The position numbers and the translations under genes are program-made. A stretch of 40,420 nt of DNA from NCBI GenBank assembly GCA_017453245.1, contig JAFTKM010000008.1, forward strand, positions 83,017 through 123,436, read 5' to 3'. The notes under the pieces are model-generated. The model saw only the letters and a list, made by a program, of their open reading frames with translations, was not told the DNA's origin and ran no database searches. This document shows, in pieces, positions 28,096 through 40,420 of this stretch (position 1 is its first letter; each line of letters begins with the position of its first letter). The stretch is from Clostridia bacterium (GTDB lineage: Bacteria > Bacillota > Clostridia > Oscillospirales > CAG-272).

Positions 28096-29979
28096 TTAAT
28101 CAAGTTCAATTATTTCGTTATAAAGATCCGCGTATCTTCCGCCAAGTCTGAGCAGCTCGTCGTGATCGCCTCTTTCTACTATTCTGCCCTTTTCAAGCAC
28201 CATTATTGCATTCGACGAGCGAACCGTCGAGAGTCTGTGAGCGATAACGAAGGTGGTCTTGTTCTCCATAATTCTGTCCATACCCTCTTCGATATGCTTC
28301 TCGGTTCTTGTGTCGACCGAGCTCGTCGCCTCGTCGAGAATGAGTATAGGCGCCTTGCTGATCGCGGCTCTCGCGATATTAAGAAGCTGACGCTGTCCCT
28401 GCGAGAGGTTTGCGCCGTCGTTCTCAAGCACGGTATCATAACCGTTCTCGAGGTTGATGATAAAGGAGTGAGCCGAAGCGATCTTAGCCGCCTCAATGAC
28501 CTCCTCGTCTGTCGCGTCAAGTCTGCCGTAGCGGATATTCTCACGCACAGTACCCGTAAAGAGGTGGGTGTCCTGAAGGACCATCGCAACGTTGCGTCTG
28601 AGAGTCGCGCGGTCGATCTTGTCGATCGGAATGCCGTCAACGGTGATCGTGCCCTCATTTATATCATAGAATCTTGAGAGAAGATTGGTAACGGTGGTCT
28701 TTCCCGCACCGGTCGAGCCGACGAAGGCTATCTTCTGGCCGGGCTTTGCGTAAAGGGAGATGTTGTGAAGAACGGTGGTGTCGGGTGTGTAGCCGAAGGA
28801 GACGTCGTCAAGGACGATATGTCCCTTGATCTCTTCGGGAGAAACCTCGTCCTCAGAGGACTGCTCGGACTTCTCGTCGAGCACCTCAAATACTCGCTCC
28901 GCTCCCGCAAGAGCCGAGAAGATAACGTTCATCTGCATAGAGATCTCGTTGATAGGTCTGTTGAAGGATCTGGTGAAGTTTAAAGAGATCGCTAGTCCGC
29001 CGTAGTCGAAGCCGCGAAGGGCTACGAGAAGACCGCCGACGCAGGCAACGATGCCGTAGGAGACGTTGCAGAGCTGGTGCGTTACGGGGCCCATAATGCC
29101 CGAGCGGAACTGAGCCTTGATCTGAGACTCAACGAGCTCATCGTTAAGGAAATCGAACTCGTCGATAGCAACAGCCTCGTGGTTGAACACCTTGACGACC
29201 TTCTGTCCCGAGATGATCTCCTCGGAAAATCCGTTGAGCATACCGAGATTCTTCTGCTGCTCCTTATAGGCGTTTCTGCCTTTTTTCATTATCAATCTGC
29301 TAACATAAGTTAGCACAGGAGTCATTATTAAGGTAATAAGACCGAGTATCCAGTTTGTATAGATCATAAGCACAACCGTGCCTACGATGGTTATCGCGCC
29401 GGAGATGATCTGAATTAATGTGGTGTTGAGCATCTCACCTACGGTGTCAACGTCGTTGGTGAAGCGGCTCATAATATCACCCGAGCGATGGGTGTCAAAA
29501 TACTTGATGGGAAGAGTCTGTATCTTGCGGTAGAGGTCGCTTCTCATACGCTTTAAGGACCTTTGCGATACAGCGAGCATCAGTCTCTGCTGCAGCCATT
29601 GGCTGGATATGGAGATAGCGTAAACAAGCGCCATAAGCGCGATACCGATGGCAAGCGAGCCCATTCTCTCGCTCGGTGTCTTACCCTCCTCGGTAAGGAG
29701 GTTGAGGACGGGCCTCAGCATATAAGACGAGATGAGAGATGCCGCGGTGTAGACAAGCGCCGCAACAAGCGCGCCTATAAGCACCGCTCTCTCGTGGGAG
29801 AGGTAGGCAAGGAGTCTGCCGAGCGTCTTTAAGGTGTTCTTCGGCTTTGCGCCGCCGCGCATCATACCGCCGGGTCCGCCCGGACCGCGCCTTGGCATAA
29901 CGCTCATTTCCTTCTTGCCGCCGCCTTCGGCTCCCGCATATTTCTTTGCGAATCTTTCGCGTCTGTCGAGTGCGTTCAT
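28096..29979 (-). CDS. ABC exporter half-transporter, catalytic partner
   Basis: A fused membrane and ATPase protein of 627 residues. An N-terminal basic, glycine-rich cytosolic extension (1-55) precedes a six-helix exporter domain (about 60-340). The ATPase domain has Walker A GSTGAGKTT, Walker B ILILDE (E550 intact) and the H-loop H581 in VIAHR. Its signature is LSQGQ (525-529) instead of LSGGQ. This is the expected match for the partner at 29979-31712, whose own Walker B and H-loop are altered. The start at 29979 is fixed by TAATG overlap with the partner and GGAGG upstream. The substrate (drug, lipid or peptide) is unknown. Confidence 0.93.
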   Translation of the reverse strand: MNALDRRERFAKKYAGAEGGGKKEMSVMPRRGPGGPGGMMRGGAKPKNTLKTLGRLLAYLSHERAVLIGALVAALVYTAASLISSYMLRPVLNLLTEEGKTPSERMGSLAIGIALMALVYAISISSQWLQQRLMLAVSQRSLKRMRSDLYRKIQTLPIKYFDTHRSGDIMSRFTNDVDTVGEMLNTTLIQIISGAITIVGTVVLMIYTNWILGLITLIMTPVLTYVSRLIMKKGRNAYKEQQKNLGMLNGFSEEIISGQKVVKVFNHEAVAIDEFDFLNDELVESQIKAQFRSGIMGPVTHQLCNVSYGIVACVGGLLVALRGFDYGGLAISLNFTRSFNRPINEISMQMNVIFSALAGAERVFEVLDEKSEQSSEDEVSPEEIKGHIVLDDVSFGYTPDTTVLHNISLYAKPGQKIAFVGSTGAGKTTVTNLLSRFYDINEGTITVDGIPIDKIDRATLRRNVAMVLQDTHLFTGTVRENIRYGRLDATDEEVIEAAKIASAHSFIINLENGYDTVLENDGANLSQGQRQLLNIARAAISKAPILILDEATSSVDTRTEKHIEEGMDRIMENKTTFVIAHRLSTVRSSNAIMVLEKGRIVERGDHDELLRLGGRYADLYNEIIELD

Positions 29980-31712
29980 TATGCTTCCACCTCCTCGTCC
30001 TTCTGAGAGAGATAGATCTCGCGGTATTCTAGGCACTTCTTCATAAGCTCCTTGTGAGTGCCGACACCGACCACCCTGCCCTCGTCGAGCACAACGATCT
30101 TGTCTGCATCCATAACCGACTGTATTCTCTGCGCGATAATAAGCTTTGTAACACCGCCGAGCTCCTCGCGGAAGGCGCGGCGTATGGAGGCGTCGGTAGC
30201 GGTATCGACCGCGCTGGTGGAGTCATCAAGAATGATAATAGCGGGGCTCTTGAGAAGCGCTCTTGCGATACAGAGCCTCTGCTTCTGTCCTCCGGAGAGC
30301 CTGGAGCCTTCTCTGCCTATCTCGGTGTCATAGCCGTCCTCGAAGGAGGAGACAAAGCTGTGAGCCTGAGCGATCTTACATACTCTCTCGAGCTCCCCGT
30401 CGGTGGCGTGCTCGTTACCCCATCTGAGGTTTTCAGCAACCGTGCCCGCAAAGAGCGTGTTCTTCTGGAGCACGCAAGCAATGCCCTCTCTGAGATTAAA
30501 GAGCGAGTAGTCCTTGACGGACACACCGTCGATAAGCACCTCGCCCTCGTCAACGTCGTAAAGACGCGGGATCATCGAGACGAGAGTGGTCTTACCCGAG
30601 CCTGTCGAGCCGATAATGCCGACGAGCTCGCCGCCCTCGATCTTAAGGTTGATATTGTCAAGCACCTTCTCGGTGTTGTTCTTGAAGTAGCGGAAGGATA
30701 CGCCGCGGAACTCTATATCGCCCTTGGTAACGCGTCTTTCCTTCTCGGAGGAGTTATCGTCGTTAAGGTCGACCTTAGCGTTAAGAACCTCGGAGATACG
30801 TCTGTCGGACGCCGCCGCTCTGGTTCCCTGCAGAATTATGTTGGCAAGGAAGTTGAGAGCTGTGAGTATCTGCGTGAGGTATGTAATAAATGCGGTGAGA
30901 GTACCGATGGTCATATCGCCGACCATGATCTGTCTGCCTGAGATCCATACAACGAGAAGCGTCGTCACGTTGATGGCGATGGCTGACACAGGCATCATAA
31001 AGAGCATTACCTTAAGAGCCGAGGTGCTCTTCTCGACAAGCTCGGAGTTGCGTCCCTCAAAGCGCTCGATCTCGTACTCCTCGCGAACGAAGGACTTGAT
31101 AACTCTCTGGTTGGTGACGGTCTCACCGATGTTGTTGTTAAGGCCGTCGAGAGCCTCCTGCATCTTAACGTATCTGGGGCTCGCGGTCTTGATGATAAGG
31201 AAGATACCGAGCGCCATAAAGGGAATGATCGCGAAGATCACCCAAGCGAGCTCACGCTTGAGGCTAAAGGACATCACCAAAGCGCCGATGAGCATTATCG
31301 GGCTGCGGAACATACCGCGCAGAAGTGTGGCGGCGAAGTTCTGTATCTGGGTGACGTCGTTGGTTATTCTCGTAATGAGTGAGCCGGTGGTAAAGTCGTC
31401 AATGTTTGAGAACGAATAGGTCTGAATTTTCTTGAAAACGTCGCGTCTGACACCTGCGGCAAGTCTCGTCGAGCCGCGGATAGCAAAGTTCGCGCCGAGA
31501 ATGCCCGTGAGCATCATAAATGCGGCGAGCAGAACCATATAAAGACCGTTCTCGAGTATATACGGAACGTTACCTTCTGCCGCGCCTTTGTCAATAATAT
31601 TAGCGTTTATATACGGGAGAATGAACTCACCGCACGCTTCCAGCACCATGAAGAATGGACCAAGGAGAAAGCTGTACCAGTACTTTTTTACGTATCCTAC
31701 GTATTTTTTCAT
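29979..31712 (-). CDS. ABC exporter half-transporter, degenerate-site partner
   Basis: 577 residues: six-helix exporter domain (about 1-310), Walker A GSTGSGKTT, intact signature LSGGQKQ, Walker B IIILDD with D497 in place of the catalytic glutamate, and an H-loop Gln (Q528 in IIAQR). This is the usual pattern of the degenerate half of heterodimeric exporters. I place the start at 31712 (MKKYVGYVKKYW) with GAAAGG upstream; the frame stays open upstream, but only through repeat DNA that translates to a nonsense pattern of Phe/Cys/Ile/Leu/His. A consensus promoter is just upstream. The stop overlaps the partner's start. Confidence 0.94.
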   Translation of the reverse strand: MKKYVGYVKKYWYSFLLGPFFMVLEACGEFILPYINANIIDKGAAEGNVPYILENGLYMVLLAAFMMLTGILGANFAIRGSTRLAAGVRRDVFKKIQTYSFSNIDDFTTGSLITRITNDVTQIQNFAATLLRGMFRSPIMLIGALVMSFSLKRELAWVIFAIIPFMALGIFLIIKTASPRYVKMQEALDGLNNNIGETVTNQRVIKSFVREEYEIERFEGRNSELVEKSTSALKVMLFMMPVSAIAINVTTLLVVWISGRQIMVGDMTIGTLTAFITYLTQILTALNFLANIILQGTRAAASDRRISEVLNAKVDLNDDNSSEKERRVTKGDIEFRGVSFRYFKNNTEKVLDNINLKIEGGELVGIIGSTGSGKTTLVSMIPRLYDVDEGEVLIDGVSVKDYSLFNLREGIACVLQKNTLFAGTVAENLRWGNEHATDGELERVCKIAQAHSFVSSFEDGYDTEIGREGSRLSGGQKQRLCIARALLKSPAIIILDDSTSAVDTATDASIRRAFREELGGVTKLIIAQRIQSVMDADKIVVLDEGRVVGVGTHKELMKKCLEYREIYLSQKDEEVEA

Positions 31713-31751
31713 TTCTTTTGCCTTTCTTGCGCCGTGTGCGCATACATAATT

Positions 31752-31780
31752 ATTATATATTATTTTGGCAAAATTGTCAA
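31752..31780 (-). promoter_or_regulatory. Consensus promoter of the ABC exporter operon
   Basis: On the minus strand TTGACA (31775-31780) and TATAAT (31752-31757) are exactly 17 bases apart, about 40 bases ahead of the ABC start. It supports the shortened start. Confidence 0.9.
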
Positions 31781-31794
31781 CGAGAGAAAAAGAA

Positions 31795-32100
31795 AAAATG
31801 TGAAATGCGAAGCGCGAAGCGCGAAGTGAGGGCGCAATGCGCAATGCGGAATTTGGAATGCGGAATGCGGAATGCGGAATTAAGGACGAGGCACAGGGCT
31901 GCGCCAATGCAAAATGCAGAATGCAAAATGCAAAATGAGGGACGAAGAACAAACCGTAGGGCGGGGGCGGTGCGGCAAAGCCGCAAATGCAAAATGCAGA
32001 ATGCAAAATGCAAAATGAGGAGAACGAGGAAGAGACGGTAGGGCGGGGGCGGTGCGGCAAAGCCGCAAATGCAAAATGCAGAATGCAAAATGAGGGGACG
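31795..32100. repeat. AATGC-type microsatellite array with two 55-bp direct repeats
   Basis: Runs of AATGC-type units (GCAAAATGCAGAATGC and GGAATGCGGAATGC patterns) and GCGAAGC units fill the region. A perfect 55-bp unit that starts GTAGGGCGGGGGCGGTGCGG and ends GCAAAATG occurs at 31956-32010 and again at 32038-32092; it contains a TGCGGC/GCCGCA hairpin. The long open frame in this DNA is a by-product of the repeats, not a gene. Confidence 0.85.
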
Positions 32101-32118
32101 GGGAATGAAGCACCTGAA

Positions 32119-32165
32119 CCTTCCCCTTTGGGGAAGGTGGATTGCGAAGCAAGACGGATGAGGTT
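32119..32165. repeat. Hairpin repeat CCTTCCCC/GGGGAAGG with tail
   Basis: CCTTCCCC (32119-32126) pairs with GGGGAAGG (32130-32137), followed by TGGATTGCGAAGCAAG and GGATGAGGTTG. This form is familiar from repeats scattered through gut Clostridia genomes; that statement rests on memory of the family, not a search. 32166-32203 holds nothing recognisable. Confidence 0.55.
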
Positions 32166-32203
32166 GCGATACGCTAGCAATTCCTACGTTTTGTCAATGC
32201 AAG

Positions 32204-33521: not shown

Positions 33522-33665
33522 CATATCCAAAAAGATAGACAGAAGTTCTTTAAGGATAGACTAAAACACCACAAGGATTTTGTGTCCGAAACGAGCCAAA
33601 CGCAGTTTTGTACACCCTTTGTACACCCAAGCCAAAAATCACACAAATTTAATAAGCCTGCATAG
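33513..33665 (+). pseudogene. Possible remnant of an element end ahead of the tRNA
   Basis: This gap between a half tRNA and the intact tRNA is open in one frame and ends QFCTPFVHPS...; a short tail of this kind could be the C-terminus of an integrase gene running up to its att site. The DNA includes a direct double TTGTACACCC (33609-33628), repeated as a 19-bp match at 35681-35699, which could instead be a recombinase arm-type site. Both readings are inference. Confidence 0.3.
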
Positions 33666-33730
33666 TTAAATGGATATAATAACCCCCTCCTAAGGGGTAG
33701 TTACAGGTTCGATTCCTGTTGCGGGTGCCA
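33656..33730 (+). tRNA. tRNA-Arg (anticodon CCU)
   Basis: It folds fully. The acceptor is GCCTGCA against TGCGGGT (two G-T pairs), the D stem GTTA/TAAT with a GG-containing loop, the anticodon stem ACCCC/GGGGT with loop CTCCTAA (anticodon CCT, 33688-33690 region), and the T stem ACAGG/CCTGT with loop TTCGATT. The discriminator is G and CCA is encoded. The 3' 44 bases are duplicated at 35835-35878, the mark of an integrated element. A terminator follows directly. Confidence 0.92.
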
Positions 33731-33733
33731 ATC

Positions 33734-33776
33734 AAGCCAAATTTACTGTAATCGAGAAGGGTAAGTTTGGCTTTTT
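33734..33776 (+). terminator. Terminator after tRNA-Arg
   Basis: AAGCCAAATTTAC (33734-33746) pairs with GTAAGTTTGGCTT (33761-33773), with one bulge, and a T-run follows. It ends the tRNA transcript and overlaps the upstream part of the lipoprotein gene. Confidence 0.75.
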
Positions 33777-33796
33777 GTGTAAAGGAGGCACGCCAA

Positions 33797-35008
33797 TTGA
33801 AGATAAAAATTTTATATTGTGTATTTTTATTCCTACTATGTTTATTCTGTGTTTGTGGCTGTGACACAGATTCAACAGCTAACACACCCACGAACAACAA
33901 TGACGATAAAAAGCAAGAAGAAACCATCGATCTCTCAATGTTTAATGGAAATCCTGATATTGAGATAACCGTTGATATTGAAAAAGAAGAAAAATCAAGT
34001 TTGATAGAACTTATCGCTATATCAAAGAATGCTTCAAATAAAAAAATCTCCAAATTGATACTCTATCATGTTAAATGTTATGGCACTGACACCGCACTAC
34101 AAAGCTCGTCACATACGGACAAGTTGGTTATAACAGATATAGATACTGGAGAAACCAAGCGCTCTCGTTGGGTGCTAGGAACAACCACGTTAGGTGCGAC
34201 GAAATACAATGTATATATTGCTTATGTACTCTATGAGGATGGAACAACATGGGGCTCGGAAGAAATCACACATAAAGCAGTTGTGACACGAAATTTGCAA
34301 GCAGATGTTTGCGTCAATGATTCTTCCACAAAAATGACGGAATGCTATTACCAAATAGATTATTCTGCGCGATTGATTTCCAATTCTCACGTTGGAGATA
34401 ATTGGTCTTACGGTGTTAAATGCACTGATAATTTCATTGAGCCGAAAACAATTGCAACCATATCTGTTCCAGAAAACAGAGGTCCTAAACTCACCATTTA
34501 CGGCATAGAAAACGATACTAAAGATGATTATGGGGCGAACACCATACTCTTTTCTGATTTGAATGTTGGAGAAAGCCAAACAATTATAGAACGTGTCATT
34601 ATCACCGAAAATGAAGGGCGTTATATAGGTTTTGATGCTTGTATGGAATTCACTGTTACTTGTACTCGAGTAGATAAAACAGATTTGCCTAACCAAGGCA
34701 ACAAATATATTTTTAATGGCGGATTGTTCGCTGACACAACAAGCAATACACCGCAGACTACATTTTCAACTTCACAAGGTGTCAATCTAGTGGGAACGTT
34801 AGAAGGCGACACCAAAGGTGTTGAAATCAGTATAAAATGGATTTTGCCAAACTGCACATTAAACGAAAGCATTACACTTGATGAAAATGGTGTAATTGAT
34901 GTTTCCTGTTGGCGTAGTTATTTGTCTGCTGGAAGCGGAAAAGTAGAGATTTACCTAGACAAAACAAATGAACTAATCGCAAGTTTGGATTTTACCATAA
35001 CGGATTAA
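33797..35008 (+). CDS. Putative lipoprotein of unknown function
   Basis: The 403 residues start at TTG 33797, with AAAGGAGG 8 bases upstream. A Lys-rich start, hydrophobic stretch (6-20) and VCGC form a lipoprotein signal ending at a cysteine near residue 22, followed by a Ser/Thr/Asn/Asp-rich linker. The rest is predicted mostly beta, with repeated Ig-like or FxLD-like domains (about 48-140, 145-265 and 270-403) judged by alternating hydrophobic pattern only. I do not recognise the family. It is AT-rich with codon use unlike its neighbours and lies between tRNA-Arg and its duplicated 3' end, so it is probably acquired DNA. Surface attachment is inferred. Confidence 0.75.
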   Translation: MKIKILYCVFLFLLCLFCVCGCDTDSTANTPTNNNDDKKQEETIDLSMFNGNPDIEITVDIEKEEKSSLIELIAISKNASNKKISKLILYHVKCYGTDTALQSSSHTDKLVITDIDTGETKRSRWVLGTTTLGATKYNVYIAYVLYEDGTTWGSEEITHKAVVTRNLQADVCVNDSSTKMTECYYQIDYSARLISNSHVGDNWSYGVKCTDNFIEPKTIATISVPENRGPKLTIYGIENDTKDDYGANTILFSDLNVGESQTIIERVIITENEGRYIGFDACMEFTVTCTRVDKTDLPNQGNKYIFNGGLFADTTSNTPQTTFSTSQGVNLVGTLEGDTKGVEISIKWILPNCTLNESITLDENGVIDVSCWRSYLSAGSGKVEIYLDKTNELIASLDFTITD

Positions 35009-36230: not shown

Positions 36231-36252
36231 CTAGTAAATGGGAGGTGATGAG

Positions 36253-37215
36253 ATGTCGAGGCGCGTAATTCTAAGAGTGGTTGGGATACTGCTTGCGGTG
36301 GCTATAATACTTGATGCGGCGTTTGTCGCCTGCTTTATTGTGGCGGGCAAATATGAGTCGTCGATCACGGTCGACAAGGACTCGCGAGTGCTGTCCTCCG
36401 ACGAGGGTGTAAGGATACTTGTGCTCTCCGACCTGCAGGGCTCAAACTACATCGAGCTGTCGTGGGCATTTGCGGCGGCAAAGGAGACGGTCAGACGGGC
36501 GAAGCCCGACCTTATACTCACCACGGGTGACAACTTCGGCAACGACGTGTCGCTCCGTCACCTTGACGCCTTTGTGCGCTTTATGGACTCCTTCGGTCTG
36601 CCCTGGGGTGTGGTGTTTGGCAATCACGACTACAACCCGTCCTTCACTATGGAGGAATACTGCGAGGCGCTCGAGGAAAGTGAAAACGGCATCTTTTACA
36701 GCCTGCCGATTGACGGAAGCTACAGTAACTACTCATACCGTCTGAGGATAGGCGGCGAGGACGTTTTCTCCCTGATTTTTATGGATAATGCGGATAGTGC
36801 GTTTACCGAAAATCACACCGCGTGGTATGAAGAGACGGTCAAGGCGGGCGTCGGTGAGGACGGCTCTTACCTACCGAGCTTTGTATTCTTCCACCGACCG
36901 CTTAATGAGAGCGTGGTTGCGGCTGAGGAATACGCCCGCGACGGAGGTATTGGCAGCGGCTTAATAGTAGATGAGGTCAGGAGCGAGGGCGGCAGCTCGG
37001 GCCTCTTTGACAAGGCGGTAGAACTCGGCAGTACGAGGGCTATGTTCTACGGTCACGACCATCGCAACAGCGCGCATATCAGCTATCGCGGCATAGATCT
37101 GTGCTACTCGCTCAAGACCGGCATCACGGTCTACTTCAAGCTCGGCTCGCTCGGCGGCGTGGTGATCGACGTCGATGAGGGCGGCGTATATGAGATCGGC
37201 CGTATCTATATTTGA
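36253..37215 (+). CDS. Membrane-anchored metallophosphoesterase
   Basis: 320 residues of the calcineurin-like phosphoesterase family, which hydrolyses phosphate esters with two metals. A hydrophobic segment (5-31) anchors or secretes it. Motifs: DLQ (60-62, where DxH is usual), GDN (92-94), GNHD (123-126), H214 in FFHRP and GHDH (267-270). The His-to-Gln change in the first motif affects one metal ligand but also occurs in active relatives. The ATG at 36253 is chosen for GGAGGTG 6-7 bases upstream; the ATG at 36238 would leave almost no leader. It is followed by a bidirectional terminator. The substrate is unknown. Confidence 0.88.
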   Translation: MSRRVILRVVGILLAVAIILDAAFVACFIVAGKYESSITVDKDSRVLSSDEGVRILVLSDLQGSNYIELSWAFAAAKETVRRAKPDLILTTGDNFGNDVSLRHLDAFVRFMDSFGLPWGVVFGNHDYNPSFTMEEYCEALEESENGIFYSLPIDGSYSNYSYRLRIGGEDVFSLIFMDNADSAFTENHTAWYEETVKAGVGEDGSYLPSFVFFHRPLNESVVAAEEYARDGGIGSGLIVDEVRSEGGSSGLFDKAVELGSTRAMFYGHDHRNSAHISYRGIDLCYSLKTGITVYFKLGSLGGVVIDVDEGGVYEIGRIYI

Positions 37216-37266
37216 TTGCTTTTTTTATAACTTACGTTTACTTTTTCGCTAATTAATAATAAAAAT

Positions 37267-37298
37267 CCGACCGAGGTGCGTTGCCGTGCCTCGGTCGG
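37267..37298. terminator. Bidirectional terminator between convergent genes
   Basis: CCGACCGAGG (37267-37276) pairs perfectly with CCTCGGTCGG (37289-37298). GTTCTTTTT follows on the plus strand and ATTTTTATT on the minus strand, serving the metallophosphoesterase and the repeat protein. A second small hairpin (CCTC/GAGG) lies near 37316-37330. Confidence 0.9.
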
Positions 37299-37381
37299 GT
37301 TCTTTTTGTCGGAGCCTCTTGTTACGAGGAGCCGCTATTATTGATCATGGCGCGCTTGGCGTCATTTTCAACTAAAAGGAA

Positions 37382-40300
37382 TTAGTCCTTCTTGCCTCCA
37401 AAGAGGTTTGCGAAGAATTCACCGATAGCCTTGAAGAAGTTCGCGATAGCCTGACCGATCTTCTCAAAGAAGGTGAGCTCCTCATCATCAGTGTTGTCAT
37501 CGGAGGGCTCGAGGGTAGGATCCTTCTCGCCGCACTCGCACTCGCCGTCAACGAAGTTGTGCTCGGTTGCGGGAGTCTGTACGCTCTTGAAGTTGGAGAG
37601 CTGAGTAAGTGCTGCGTCGGTGAATACTGCCTGACAGTCTGCGCAGTACCAGTGCTCTACGTTACCGTTAGAGGTGCAGGTTGCTTCTGCAGCATCTATG
37701 TGAACGATGGTTGCGGTGTAAGGAACTACAACACTCTTGAAGTTGGAGAGCTGAGTGAGTGCTGCGTCGGTGAATACTGCCTTACACTCTGCGCAATACC
37801 AGCACTCTACGTTACCGTTCTGGTGGCAGCCTGCTGCAACAGCCTCAACGTGTACGATCTCTGCGGTGCAAGCAATAACAACGCTCTTGAAGTTGGAGAG
37901 CTGAGTGAGAGCTGCATCGGTGAATACTGCCTGACAATCAGCGCAGTACCAGTACTCGAGATTACCGTTCTGGTGGCAGGTAGCATCGGTTGCATCAACG
38001 TGATTGATGTTCGCGGTGCAAGGAACTACAACGCTCTTGAAGTTGGAGAGCTGAGTGAGAGCCGCATCGGTGAATACTGCATTGCAATCTGCGCAGTACC
38101 AGTACTCTACGTTACCGTTCTGATGGCAGGTAGCCTCTACTGCATCAACGTGATTGATGTTTGCGGTGTAAGGAACTACAACGCTCTTGAAGTTGGAAAG
38201 CTGAGTGAGTGCTACGTCGGTAAATACTGCATTACACTCTGCGCAGTACCAGTACTCTACGTTACCGTTCTGGTGGCAGCTTGCTGCAACAGCCTCAACG
38301 TGCTTGATCTCTGCAGTGCAAGCGGTTACAACGCTCTTGAAGTTAGAGAGCTGAGTAAGAGCCGCATCGGTGAATACTGCCTGGCAGTCTGCGCAGTACC
38401 AATACTCTACGTTACCGTTCTGGTGACAGCTTGCCGCAACAGCGTCAACGTGAGTGATGTTTGCAGTATAAGCGATAACAACGCTCTTGAAGTTAGAGAG
38501 CTGAGTGAGATTTACGTCGGTAAATACTGCCTGACACTCTGCGCAGTACCAGTACTCAACGTTACCGTTCTGGTGGCAGCTTGCTGCAACAGCCTCAACG
38601 TGCTTGATCTCTGCGGTGCAAGCGGTTACAACGCTCTTGAAGTTGGAAAGCTGAGTAAGTGCCGCATCGGTGAATACTGCCTGGCAGTCTGCGCAGTACC
38701 AGTACTCTACGTTACCGTTCTGGTGGCAGCCTGCCGCAACAGCCTCAACGTGCTTAATGTTTGCGGTGTAAGGAGTTACAACGCTCTTGAAGTTGGAGAG
38801 CTGAGTAAGTGCCGCATCGGTGAATACTGCCTGACACTCTGCACAGTACCAGTACTCTACGTTACCGGTCTGGTGGCAGGTAGCTGCAACTGCATTAACG
38901 TGCTTGATCTCAGCGGTTGCGGGAGTGATTACGCTCTTGAAGTTAGAGAGCTGAGTAAGTGCTGCATCGGTGAATACTGCATTACACTCTGCGCAGTACC
39001 AGTACTCGACGTTGCCGTTCTGGTGGCAGTTAGCCTCTACTGCCTCAACGTGCTTGATCTCTGCGGTATAAGGAACGGTAAGGTTCTTAACGTTGGTAAG
39101 ATATCTGCCGTTTACGTCGGAGAATACAGCCTCACACTCTGCGCAGTACCAGTACTCAAGATTACCGTTCTGGTGGCAGTGTGCCTCTGTTGCGGGAACG
39201 TATGCAAGACCTACGGTTGCGGGAATAACTACGTTCTTGAAGTTGGTGAGCTGAGTGAGCTCTACGTCGGTGAATACTGCATTACACTCTGCGCAGTACC
39301 AGTGCTCTACGTTACCGTTCTGGTGGCAATTTGCCTCTGTTGCTGCAACGTATACGATCTCTGCGGTGCAAGGAGTGATAACACTCTTGAAGTTGGAGAT
39401 CTGGGTAAGAGCCGCATCGGTAAATACTGCAATACACTCGGTGCAGTACCAGTACTCTACGTTACCGTTCTGGTGGCAGTTAGCCTCAACAGCCTCAACG
39501 TGAGTGATAGTTGCGGTATAAGGAATAGTAAGATTCTTAACGTTGGTAAGATATCTGCCGTCTGCATCGGAGAATACCGCCTGACAGTCTGCACAGTACC
39601 AGTACTCCTGAGAGCCGTTCTGGTGGCAGTTAGCCTCTACCTTCTCAACGTGAGTAAGATTGTTTGCTGCGGGAAGAACTACGTTCTTAATGTTGGTAAG
39701 CTGGGTGAGAGCCTCATCCTGCCATACCTGATTACACTCTGCGCAGTACCAGTACTCGATGTTACCGTTCTGGTGGCAACCTGCCTCAACTGCCTCGTAG
39801 TGAGTGAGAAGATTGCTTCCCTTAGCGGGGATAACAACGTTCTTTACGTTGGTGATCTGAGTAAGAGCTTCATCCTGCCATACAGTCTCACATGCATAGC
39901 AGATCCAGTACTCGATATTGCCGGTGTAGTGGCAACCGGAAGCTACTGCATCCATATGTACGAGCTTCTGGTGCTCAGCGGGAACTGTAAGGTTCATTCT
40001 GTTTGTGAGCTGAATGCCCTGCGCGTCGGAGAATACTGCCTGACACTCTGCGCAGTACCAATACTCAAGAGAGCCGTTCTCATAGCAGGTTGCTGCTACA
40101 GCCTCAACGTGGGTAAGACCTACGGTTGCGGGAGTGATTACGCTCTTGAAGTTGGAGAGCTGAGTGAGAGCCGCATCGGTGAATACTGCATTGCACTCTG
40201 CGCAGTACCAGTACTCTACGTTACCGGTCTGGTGGCAGTTAGCCTCTACTGCCTCAACGTGCTTGATCTCGGCGGTGTAAGGAACTACTACGTTCTTGAT

Positions 40301-40420
40301 ATTGGTAAGCTGGGTGAGAGCCTCATCCTGCCATACCTGATTACACTCTGCGCAGTACCAGTACTCGATGTTACCGTTCTGGTGGCAACCTGCCTCTACT
40401 GCCTCGTAGTGAGTGAGAAG
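37382..40420 (-). CDS. Giant Cys/His-module repeat protein, 5' end outside the window
   Basis: The frame is open from the stop at 37382 to the window edge (1012 residues visible); the apparent ATG at 39997 is internal, since the same frame and repeats continue upstream. Nineteen modules of 50 residues each carry H-x7-C-x10-C-x2-C, with the constant pieces NGNVEYWYC and LTQLSNFKSV. Such WYCxxC modules occur in small numbers in surface proteins of gut Firmicutes; four potential metal ligands per module suggest zinc, which is inference. After the last module come HNFVDGECECGEKDP, an acidic linker, and an amphipathic tail rich in Phe (about the last 30 residues) ending FGGKKD. There is no LPxTG motif. 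The tail may bind membrane. N-terminal signal and function are not visible. Confidence 0.92.
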   Translation of the reverse strand, partial: LLTHYEAVEAGCHQNGNIEYWYCAECNQVWQDEALTQLTNIKNVVVPYTAEIKHVEAVEANCHQTGNVEYWYCAECNAVFTDAALTQLSNFKSVITPATVGLTHVEAVAATCYENGSLEYWYCAECQAVFSDAQGIQLTNRMNLTVPAEHQKLVHMDAVASGCHYTGNIEYWICYACETVWQDEALTQITNVKNVVIPAKGSNLLTHYEAVEAGCHQNGNIEYWYCAECNQVWQDEALTQLTNIKNVVLPAANNLTHVEKVEANCHQNGSQEYWYCADCQAVFSDADGRYLTNVKNLTIPYTATITHVEAVEANCHQNGNVEYWYCTECIAVFTDAALTQISNFKSVITPCTAEIVYVAATEANCHQNGNVEHWYCAECNAVFTDVELTQLTNFKNVVIPATVGLAYVPATEAHCHQNGNLEYWYCAECEAVFSDVNGRYLTNVKNLTVPYTAEIKHVEAVEANCHQNGNVEYWYCAECNAVFTDAALTQLSNFKSVITPATAEIKHVNAVAATCHQTGNVEYWYCAECQAVFTDAALTQLSNFKSVVTPYTANIKHVEAVAAGCHQNGNVEYWYCADCQAVFTDAALTQLSNFKSVVTACTAEIKHVEAVAASCHQNGNVEYWYCAECQAVFTDVNLTQLSNFKSVVIAYTANITHVDAVAASCHQNGNVEYWYCADCQAVFTDAALTQLSNFKSVVTACTAEIKHVEAVAASCHQNGNVEYWYCAECNAVFTDVALTQLSNFKSVVVPYTANINHVDAVEATCHQNGNVEYWYCADCNAVFTDAALTQLSNFKSVVVPCTANINHVDATDATCHQNGNLEYWYCADCQAVFTDAALTQLSNFKSVVIACTAEIVHVEAVAAGCHQNGNVECWYCAECKAVFTDAALTQLSNFKSVVVPYTATIVHIDAAEATCTSNGNVEHWYCADCQAVFTDAALTQLSNFKSVQTPATEHNFVDGECECGEKDPTLEPSDDNTDDEELTFFEKIGQAIANFFKAIGEFFANLFGGKKD
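37570..40420 (-). repeat. Tandem 150-bp coding repeat, 19 units visible
   Basis: The landmark GCGCAGTACC and close variants recur at 37641, 37791, 37941 and every 150 bases up to 39891, then at 40050, 40200 and 40350; one unit is 9 bp longer. Units differ by a few bases, mainly at codon third positions and at a few variable residues. A larger order is visible: the unit at 39741 is almost the same as the one at 40350, and paired unit types (FSD...GRYLTNVKNLT followed by FTDAALTQ) recur. Confidence 0.93.

Follow-up and report, generated by a model that had tools for sequence, protein, structure and literature searches.

A tandem array of Cys/His modules related to a predicted zinc-binding domain of an IgA protease may form a surface stalk in a gut Clostridia bacterium

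The IgA protease (IgAse) of Thomasclavelia ramosa carries an elongated domain, ZBD1, about 110 Å long and composed of three subdomains according to an AlphaFold3 prediction (PMC12237041, available part). Putative structural zinc sites, each formed by two His and two Cys, are predicted between these subdomains, and one of the two sites predicted in ZBD2 consists of three Cys and one His. The same part of that report reports no disulfides in IgAse, which needed a reductant to stay monodisperse (PMC12237041). Long surface stalks of a different make are known as Periscope Proteins and include SasG, Aap, Rib and SHIRT stalks, single chains of tandem folded domains (PMC9704523, available part). No zinc-stapled fold is among the Periscope folds named there. 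Aap also provides the case of zinc-dependent homophilic adhesion through B-repeats (PMC9802226, available part). The present analysis describes an array of at least 19 modules in a row related to one of the IgAse subdomains, which in ZBD1 stands once beside two shorter ones.

The window, that is, the whole stretch of 40,420 nucleotides analysed here, covers bases 83017-123436 of contig C2 (123436 bases). It belongs to a Clostridia genome of 1.59 Mb in 27 contigs, 64% complete. The array gene lies at its far end on the minus strand, and its frame is still open at 40420, the last base of the contig. Since the contig ends inside the frame, the assembly truncates the array, and the 5′ end of the gene lies beyond the contig. 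The features of this region are as follows.

36238..37215, plus strand: calcineurin-like phosphoesterase, a convergent neighbour with no evident link to the array gene
37264..37301, plus strand: terminator-like hairpin between the two convergent genes (1 found against 2.6 expected in shuffles)
37382..40420, minus strand: whole open frame, 1012 aa plus stop (stop at 37382-37384), 5′ end missing
37574..40411, minus strand: 19 tandem modules of 50-52 residues each, from repeat and frame analysis
40262-40411, minus strand: module 1, first of the array
37574-37702, minus strand: module 19, last of the array
37385-37573, minus strand: non-repeated C-terminal region behind the array
37517..37564, minus strand: EHNFVDGECECGEKDP, a short H/C-C motif resembling a mini zinc knuckle, with a putative metal role
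37472..37516, minus strand: acidic linker TLEPSDDNTDDEELT, read from the sequence
37400..37471, minus strand: amphipathic aromatic stretch FFEKIGQAIANFFKAIGEFFANLF, a putative helix with a presumed role
37385-37399, minus strand: GGKKD following FFEKIGQAIANFFKAIGEFFANLF, the C-terminal end

The plus strand over the same stretch also holds a long frame (954 aa); the minus frame is the one that carries both the selection pattern described below and the homologues found. Tandem Repeats Finder reported a period of 150 with a score of 2252. An earlier sequence-only reading had counted at least 19 modules, and all 19 are indeed found in one open frame. The exact 50-residue period that it proposed holds for 16 of the 18 spacings, the remaining two being 51 and 52 residues. 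Its motif H-x7-C-x10-C-x2-C is likewise correct in the Cys part (19/19), whereas the full motif with His occurs in 17 of the 19 modules, the other two having Tyr. These 17 His and 57 Cys make 74 residues, in agreement with its figure of over 70 potential ligands. With the first Cys of the module numbered 0, the residues C0, G4, E7, W9, C11, C14, V17, D20 and N28 are invariant in 19/19 modules. The visible protein contains 65 Cys and 39 His, a Cys content of 6.4%. Exactly three Cys are present in 13/19 modules; hence the Cys of these modules cannot all pair inside the module. A fourth Cys occurs in six modules (7, 12, 14, 16, 17 and 18).

Comparison of all module pairs (171 pairs, over 43 residues) gave protein identities of 40-98% (mean 70%) and DNA identities of 56-96% (mean 76%), with no pair at or above 97% DNA identity. 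The earlier description of the modules as near-identical, with strong DNA identity, was thus an overstatement. Mean pS was 0.46 and mean pN was 0.18, and pN was lower than pS in 171/171 pairs. Where two modules share an amino acid, the codons matched at 73% of the sites against 61% expected from the codon usage of the array, and the codon match exceeded z = 3 in 9/171 pairs, among them 1-5, 12-14, 13-15 and 2-16. Because synonymous sites have diverged and pN is below pS in every pair, the array is mostly an old duplication maintained by purifying selection on the protein, plus a few younger duplications. A recent expansion or gene conversion, as suggested earlier, is therefore mostly contradicted, the exception being these few younger pairs.

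A single-module profile built from 45 modules (A2) matched residues 852-896 of the T. ramosa IgA protease (PDB 9QA6) with E = 8e-14, and a three-module profile matched the same protein with E = 4.2e-7. Profile comparison establishes homology of the array module with part of ZBD1, the predicted zinc-binding domain, and the residue numbers suggest that the module corresponds to subdomain I. Besides this homology, the two share the same three Cys, the G and the D, a probable extracellular setting and a predicted zinc. They differ around the Cys: in the IgAse module, His occupies -12 and -14, T occupies +1 and L occupies -8, whereas the array places His at +1 and, in most modules, at -8. An AlphaFold2 model of three modules (mean pLDDT 87.3, pTM 0.52) was all beta, each module showing two strands of at least three residues and several shorter ones; for a ZBD subdomain I, a three-stranded antiparallel sheet would be expected. 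Foldseek and VIA searches returned no convincing match.

Curated families in the libraries scanned do not describe this unit. Pfam was run on 17 module proteins, of which three contain short sister modules only, and NCBIfam in one scan; neither gave a model covering the whole 47-50 residues. The window array passes the whole-protein cut-offs of six unrelated families (PF23104, PF20097, PF12874, PF00096, PF12354 and NF047912), and these passing scores are sums of stretches of 11-26 residues. The likeness to C2H2 zinc fingers (PF23104, PF00096, PF12874) is a short Y-x-C-x2-C-x3-F stretch. A C2H2 identity was rejected, as the best Pfam stretches span just 12-16 residues and there is no His-x3-5-His half; by eye, none of the 19 module strings has the His pair after CxxC that C-x2-4-C-x12-H-x3-5-H calls for. 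Automatic labels such as 'C2H2 zinc finger' are thus misleading for these module proteins. In the part of the literature available to us, the module is so far known from a single enzyme, as the predicted domain pair ZBD1/ZBD2 of IgAse, and that literature did not describe arrays of 19 or 50 modules, dockerin or cohesin company, or the His shift proposed below.

The sequence-only reading had named four potential metal ligands per module. Within the window its His (-8) and the His at +1, which directly follows the first Cys in CHQNG, are equally conserved (17/19 each). Among 223 unique modules from 33 frame fragments, however, the two behave differently. An upstream His at -12 to -14 (GH-type) is present in 109/223 modules, of which 8/109 have His +1, against 94/114 of the modules that have no His at -12 to -14. 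His -8 shows no such difference (53/109 with the upstream His versus 57/114 without). The Fisher p value for His +1 versus the upstream His, 2e-32, is overstated, as the modules are not independent of one another. In five proteins that carry both kinds (75 modules), His +1 and the upstream His occurred together 8 times against 12.1 expected by shuffles, that is, more rarely (p = 0.019). Against a shift stand the equal conservation of His -8 and His +1 within the window, some modules with neither His, and also the published model, which in the part available mostly favours sites between subdomains (PMC12237041). This co-variation is moderate evidence that the fourth ligand, formerly the GH upstream of the site, is now the residue directly behind the first Cys. 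Three Cys and one His make a plausible site, but the His named earlier does not track it across relatives and is probably not the ligand.

The module is not confined to the window. Contig C21 of the same genome has another frame with such modules, 14 by a strict pattern; it is 1380 aa long and lipoprotein-like. A query of modules plus tail matched 21/69 genomes of the genus, the window's own among them. A2 matched 119/394 sampled genomes of the order (30%, own genome counted) and 5/398 of the phylum sample (own genome counted), two of these five being others of the order. A scan of named genomes yielded two Clostridia MAGs (roe deer caecum and sheep colon), one Oscillospiraceae MAG and one weak match. 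The protein had been called very unusual, which, given the frequency of the module in the order, is borne out only in part. The relatives with dockerin or cohesin domains are the following.

L119, 246-9116: zinc-module protein with dockerin
L058, 2679-9425: zinc-module protein with cohesin
L129, 2-7060: zinc-module protein with cohesin
L130, 2979-8327: zinc-module protein with dockerin

The complete relative L119 (2957 aa) contains 50 modules, 49 of them with all three Cys; its start resembles a signal peptide by eye, and it ends in a dockerin (E = 6.5e-18). Dockerin_1 is found in L119 and L130, the latter also having a transglutaminase-like domain, and cohesin domains are found in L058 and L129. 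Other relatives combine the modules with F5/F8 type C domains (L120), SLH, LRR and Big_2 domains (L123), LRR (L126) or a C-type lectin domain (L124); the Pfam scan of L121 and L052 gave no match at the cut used. Among 17 frames in the window and 24 further loci whose 5′ side is closed, 9 have a lipobox and 5 a signal-peptide-like start, judged by eye and not by a program. The likeness of the window array to cellulosomal scaffoldins and dockerin proteins exists only through these relatives: cohesin and dockerin gave no match at E ≤ 1 in the visible 1012 aa, whose N-terminus lies outside the contig, and the genome that contains the window, 64% complete, gave none at E ≤ 0.001. In the genome of L119, 23 dockerin matches and 2 cohesin matches suggest cellulosome-like complexes with very long spacers.

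The 50-residue step recurs in other pure arrays, with 43/49 spacings in L119 and 7/7 in L047. It is not fixed in mixed relatives (8/18 spacings of 50 in L046 and 2/13 in L022), because other short modules are interleaved there. Shorter sister modules, of the types GH...C...GLTEGKHCSVC and H-Y-x-CD-x-C-x2-C, occur interleaved or alone in secreted proteins (L022, L023, L024, L025 and L049) that have LRR, Big_2 or transglutaminase-like parts. The Pfam scan made gave no curated family for them.

Behind the array, FFEKIGQAIANFFKAIGEFFANLF has a hydrophobic moment of 0.60, a value reached by 0/10000 shuffles. A similar tail ends 4/10 frames read at tail-region matches in other genus members (L050, L051, L132 and L133); three of these begin with a hydrophobic leader, and the 5′ side of L133 is cut. 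A motif similar to EHNFVDGECECGEKDP precedes the tail in L050, L051 and L133. All four bear the linker and an amphipathic Phe-rich stretch on otherwise different proteins. The tail may serve membrane or envelope association, and its sharing within the genus makes it a candidate sorting or anchoring signal.

Our preferred reading, to which we assign a probability of about 0.6, is that the array forms a zinc-stabilised surface stalk of at least 19 small modules on a secreted protein of gut Clostridia. A surface fibre or adhesin stalk had been among the roles suggested earlier. This suggestion gains support from homologues that carry cohesin, dockerin or SLH domains or that, judged by eye, have lipoboxes or signal peptides, and from the homology to a zinc-binding domain predicted, in the available part of PMC12237041, to be some 110 Å long. 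The protein would be exported by a signal lost with the missing 5′ end. Each module would be a small beta unit, a relative of ZBD1 subdomain I, most likely folded round one structural zinc, to which the three invariant Cys and a single His would bind. In modules of the usual form, this His would belong to a 'GH' that precedes the first Cys by 12-14 residues; for the present array, the His of CHQNG is the most likely candidate. With metal in place of disulfides, the 50-residue unit could be stacked as an extended rod, and at a fixed 50-residue step the modules may build a long thin stalk. If rod-like, 19 modules would measure about 70-80 nm, scaled from the published value of about 110 Å for three subdomains (129 residues). 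The acidic linker and the amphipathic tail would probably retain the protein at the envelope. The missing N-terminal end is expected to hold a tip domain with a binding or enzymatic role.

A stalk that changes its length quickly, as in the Periscope Proteins, was implied by the sequence-only reading and would suit a long tandem array. Moreover, among the 16 frames with at least four modules (window plus 24 loci), 7 reach a contig end, as assembled repeats often do, while 6 are complete and the remaining 3 have ends beyond the stretch read. Contig ends alone, however, do not prove identical repeats. Periscope Proteins have highly identical repeat DNA, whereas none of the 171 window pairs reaches 97% DNA identity; the mean of 76% and the mean pS of 0.46 make rapid length variation unlikely. 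A surface metal store or scavenger, in which length serves capacity and not reach, would agree with so many Cys and His in 1012 aa. We consider it quite unlikely, as the Cys content is 6.4%, the invariance of the Cys is shared by G, E, W, V, D and N, which is expected of a fold, and the relatives place modules beside or between other domains.

Pairing of modules on neighbouring cells through metal would suit a long repeat stalk with metal ligands, and the zinc-dependent B-repeat adhesion of staphylococcal Aap is a precedent (PMC9802226, available part). Yet three Cys and one His would presumably fill one site within a module, and G5, the domain of the Aap/SasG G5-E stalk, gave no match at E ≤ 1 in Pfam or NCBIfam; zinc-dependent self-association is therefore very unlikely. 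Similarly little weight is given to a disulfide-linked or redox-switch array in place of a metal protein. Such an array would fit a Cys-rich, probably extracellular protein with a fourth Cys in six modules. It is at odds with the three Cys of 13/19 modules, with the His that accompanies the Cys in most modules, with the gut anaerobe that is assumed as its source, and with the related IgAse, for which the available part of PMC12237041 reports no disulfides and a need for reductant to remain monodisperse.

If the stalk is a zinc-stapled rod, it would exemplify a disulfide-free way for anaerobes to make long surface stalks and would tie luminal zinc to surface architecture. Apart from this, a module for which the scans gave no curated family occurs in 30% of the genomes sampled from the order, and the proteins that carry it are probably exposed to host and fibre. 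A wider and more tentative possibility, which we hold to be rather doubtful, is that the modules form an unnamed single-zinc family that serves gut Clostridia as a general metal-stapled spacer of up to 50 units in lipoproteins, scaffolds and dockerin proteins, with zinc-dependent stiffness and reach and a moved His ligand. Were this so, the stiffness of the stalk and hence its reach would vary with the zinc of the gut lumen, and in the long-array lineage the His would have shifted from the GH before the first Cys to the position that follows this Cys.

Two minor observations concern other parts of the window. An 82-bp repeat in 2.4 copies, made up of AATGCAA-like 7-mers, lies at 31902-32092, within the mechanically called start of the ABC transporter frame at 29979-32180, whose real start codon is probably further downstream. 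At 33656-35008, a tRNA-Arg (CCT) adjoins a 413-aa frame with a lipobox-like, Cys-rich N-terminus, and this region is possibly an insertion site.
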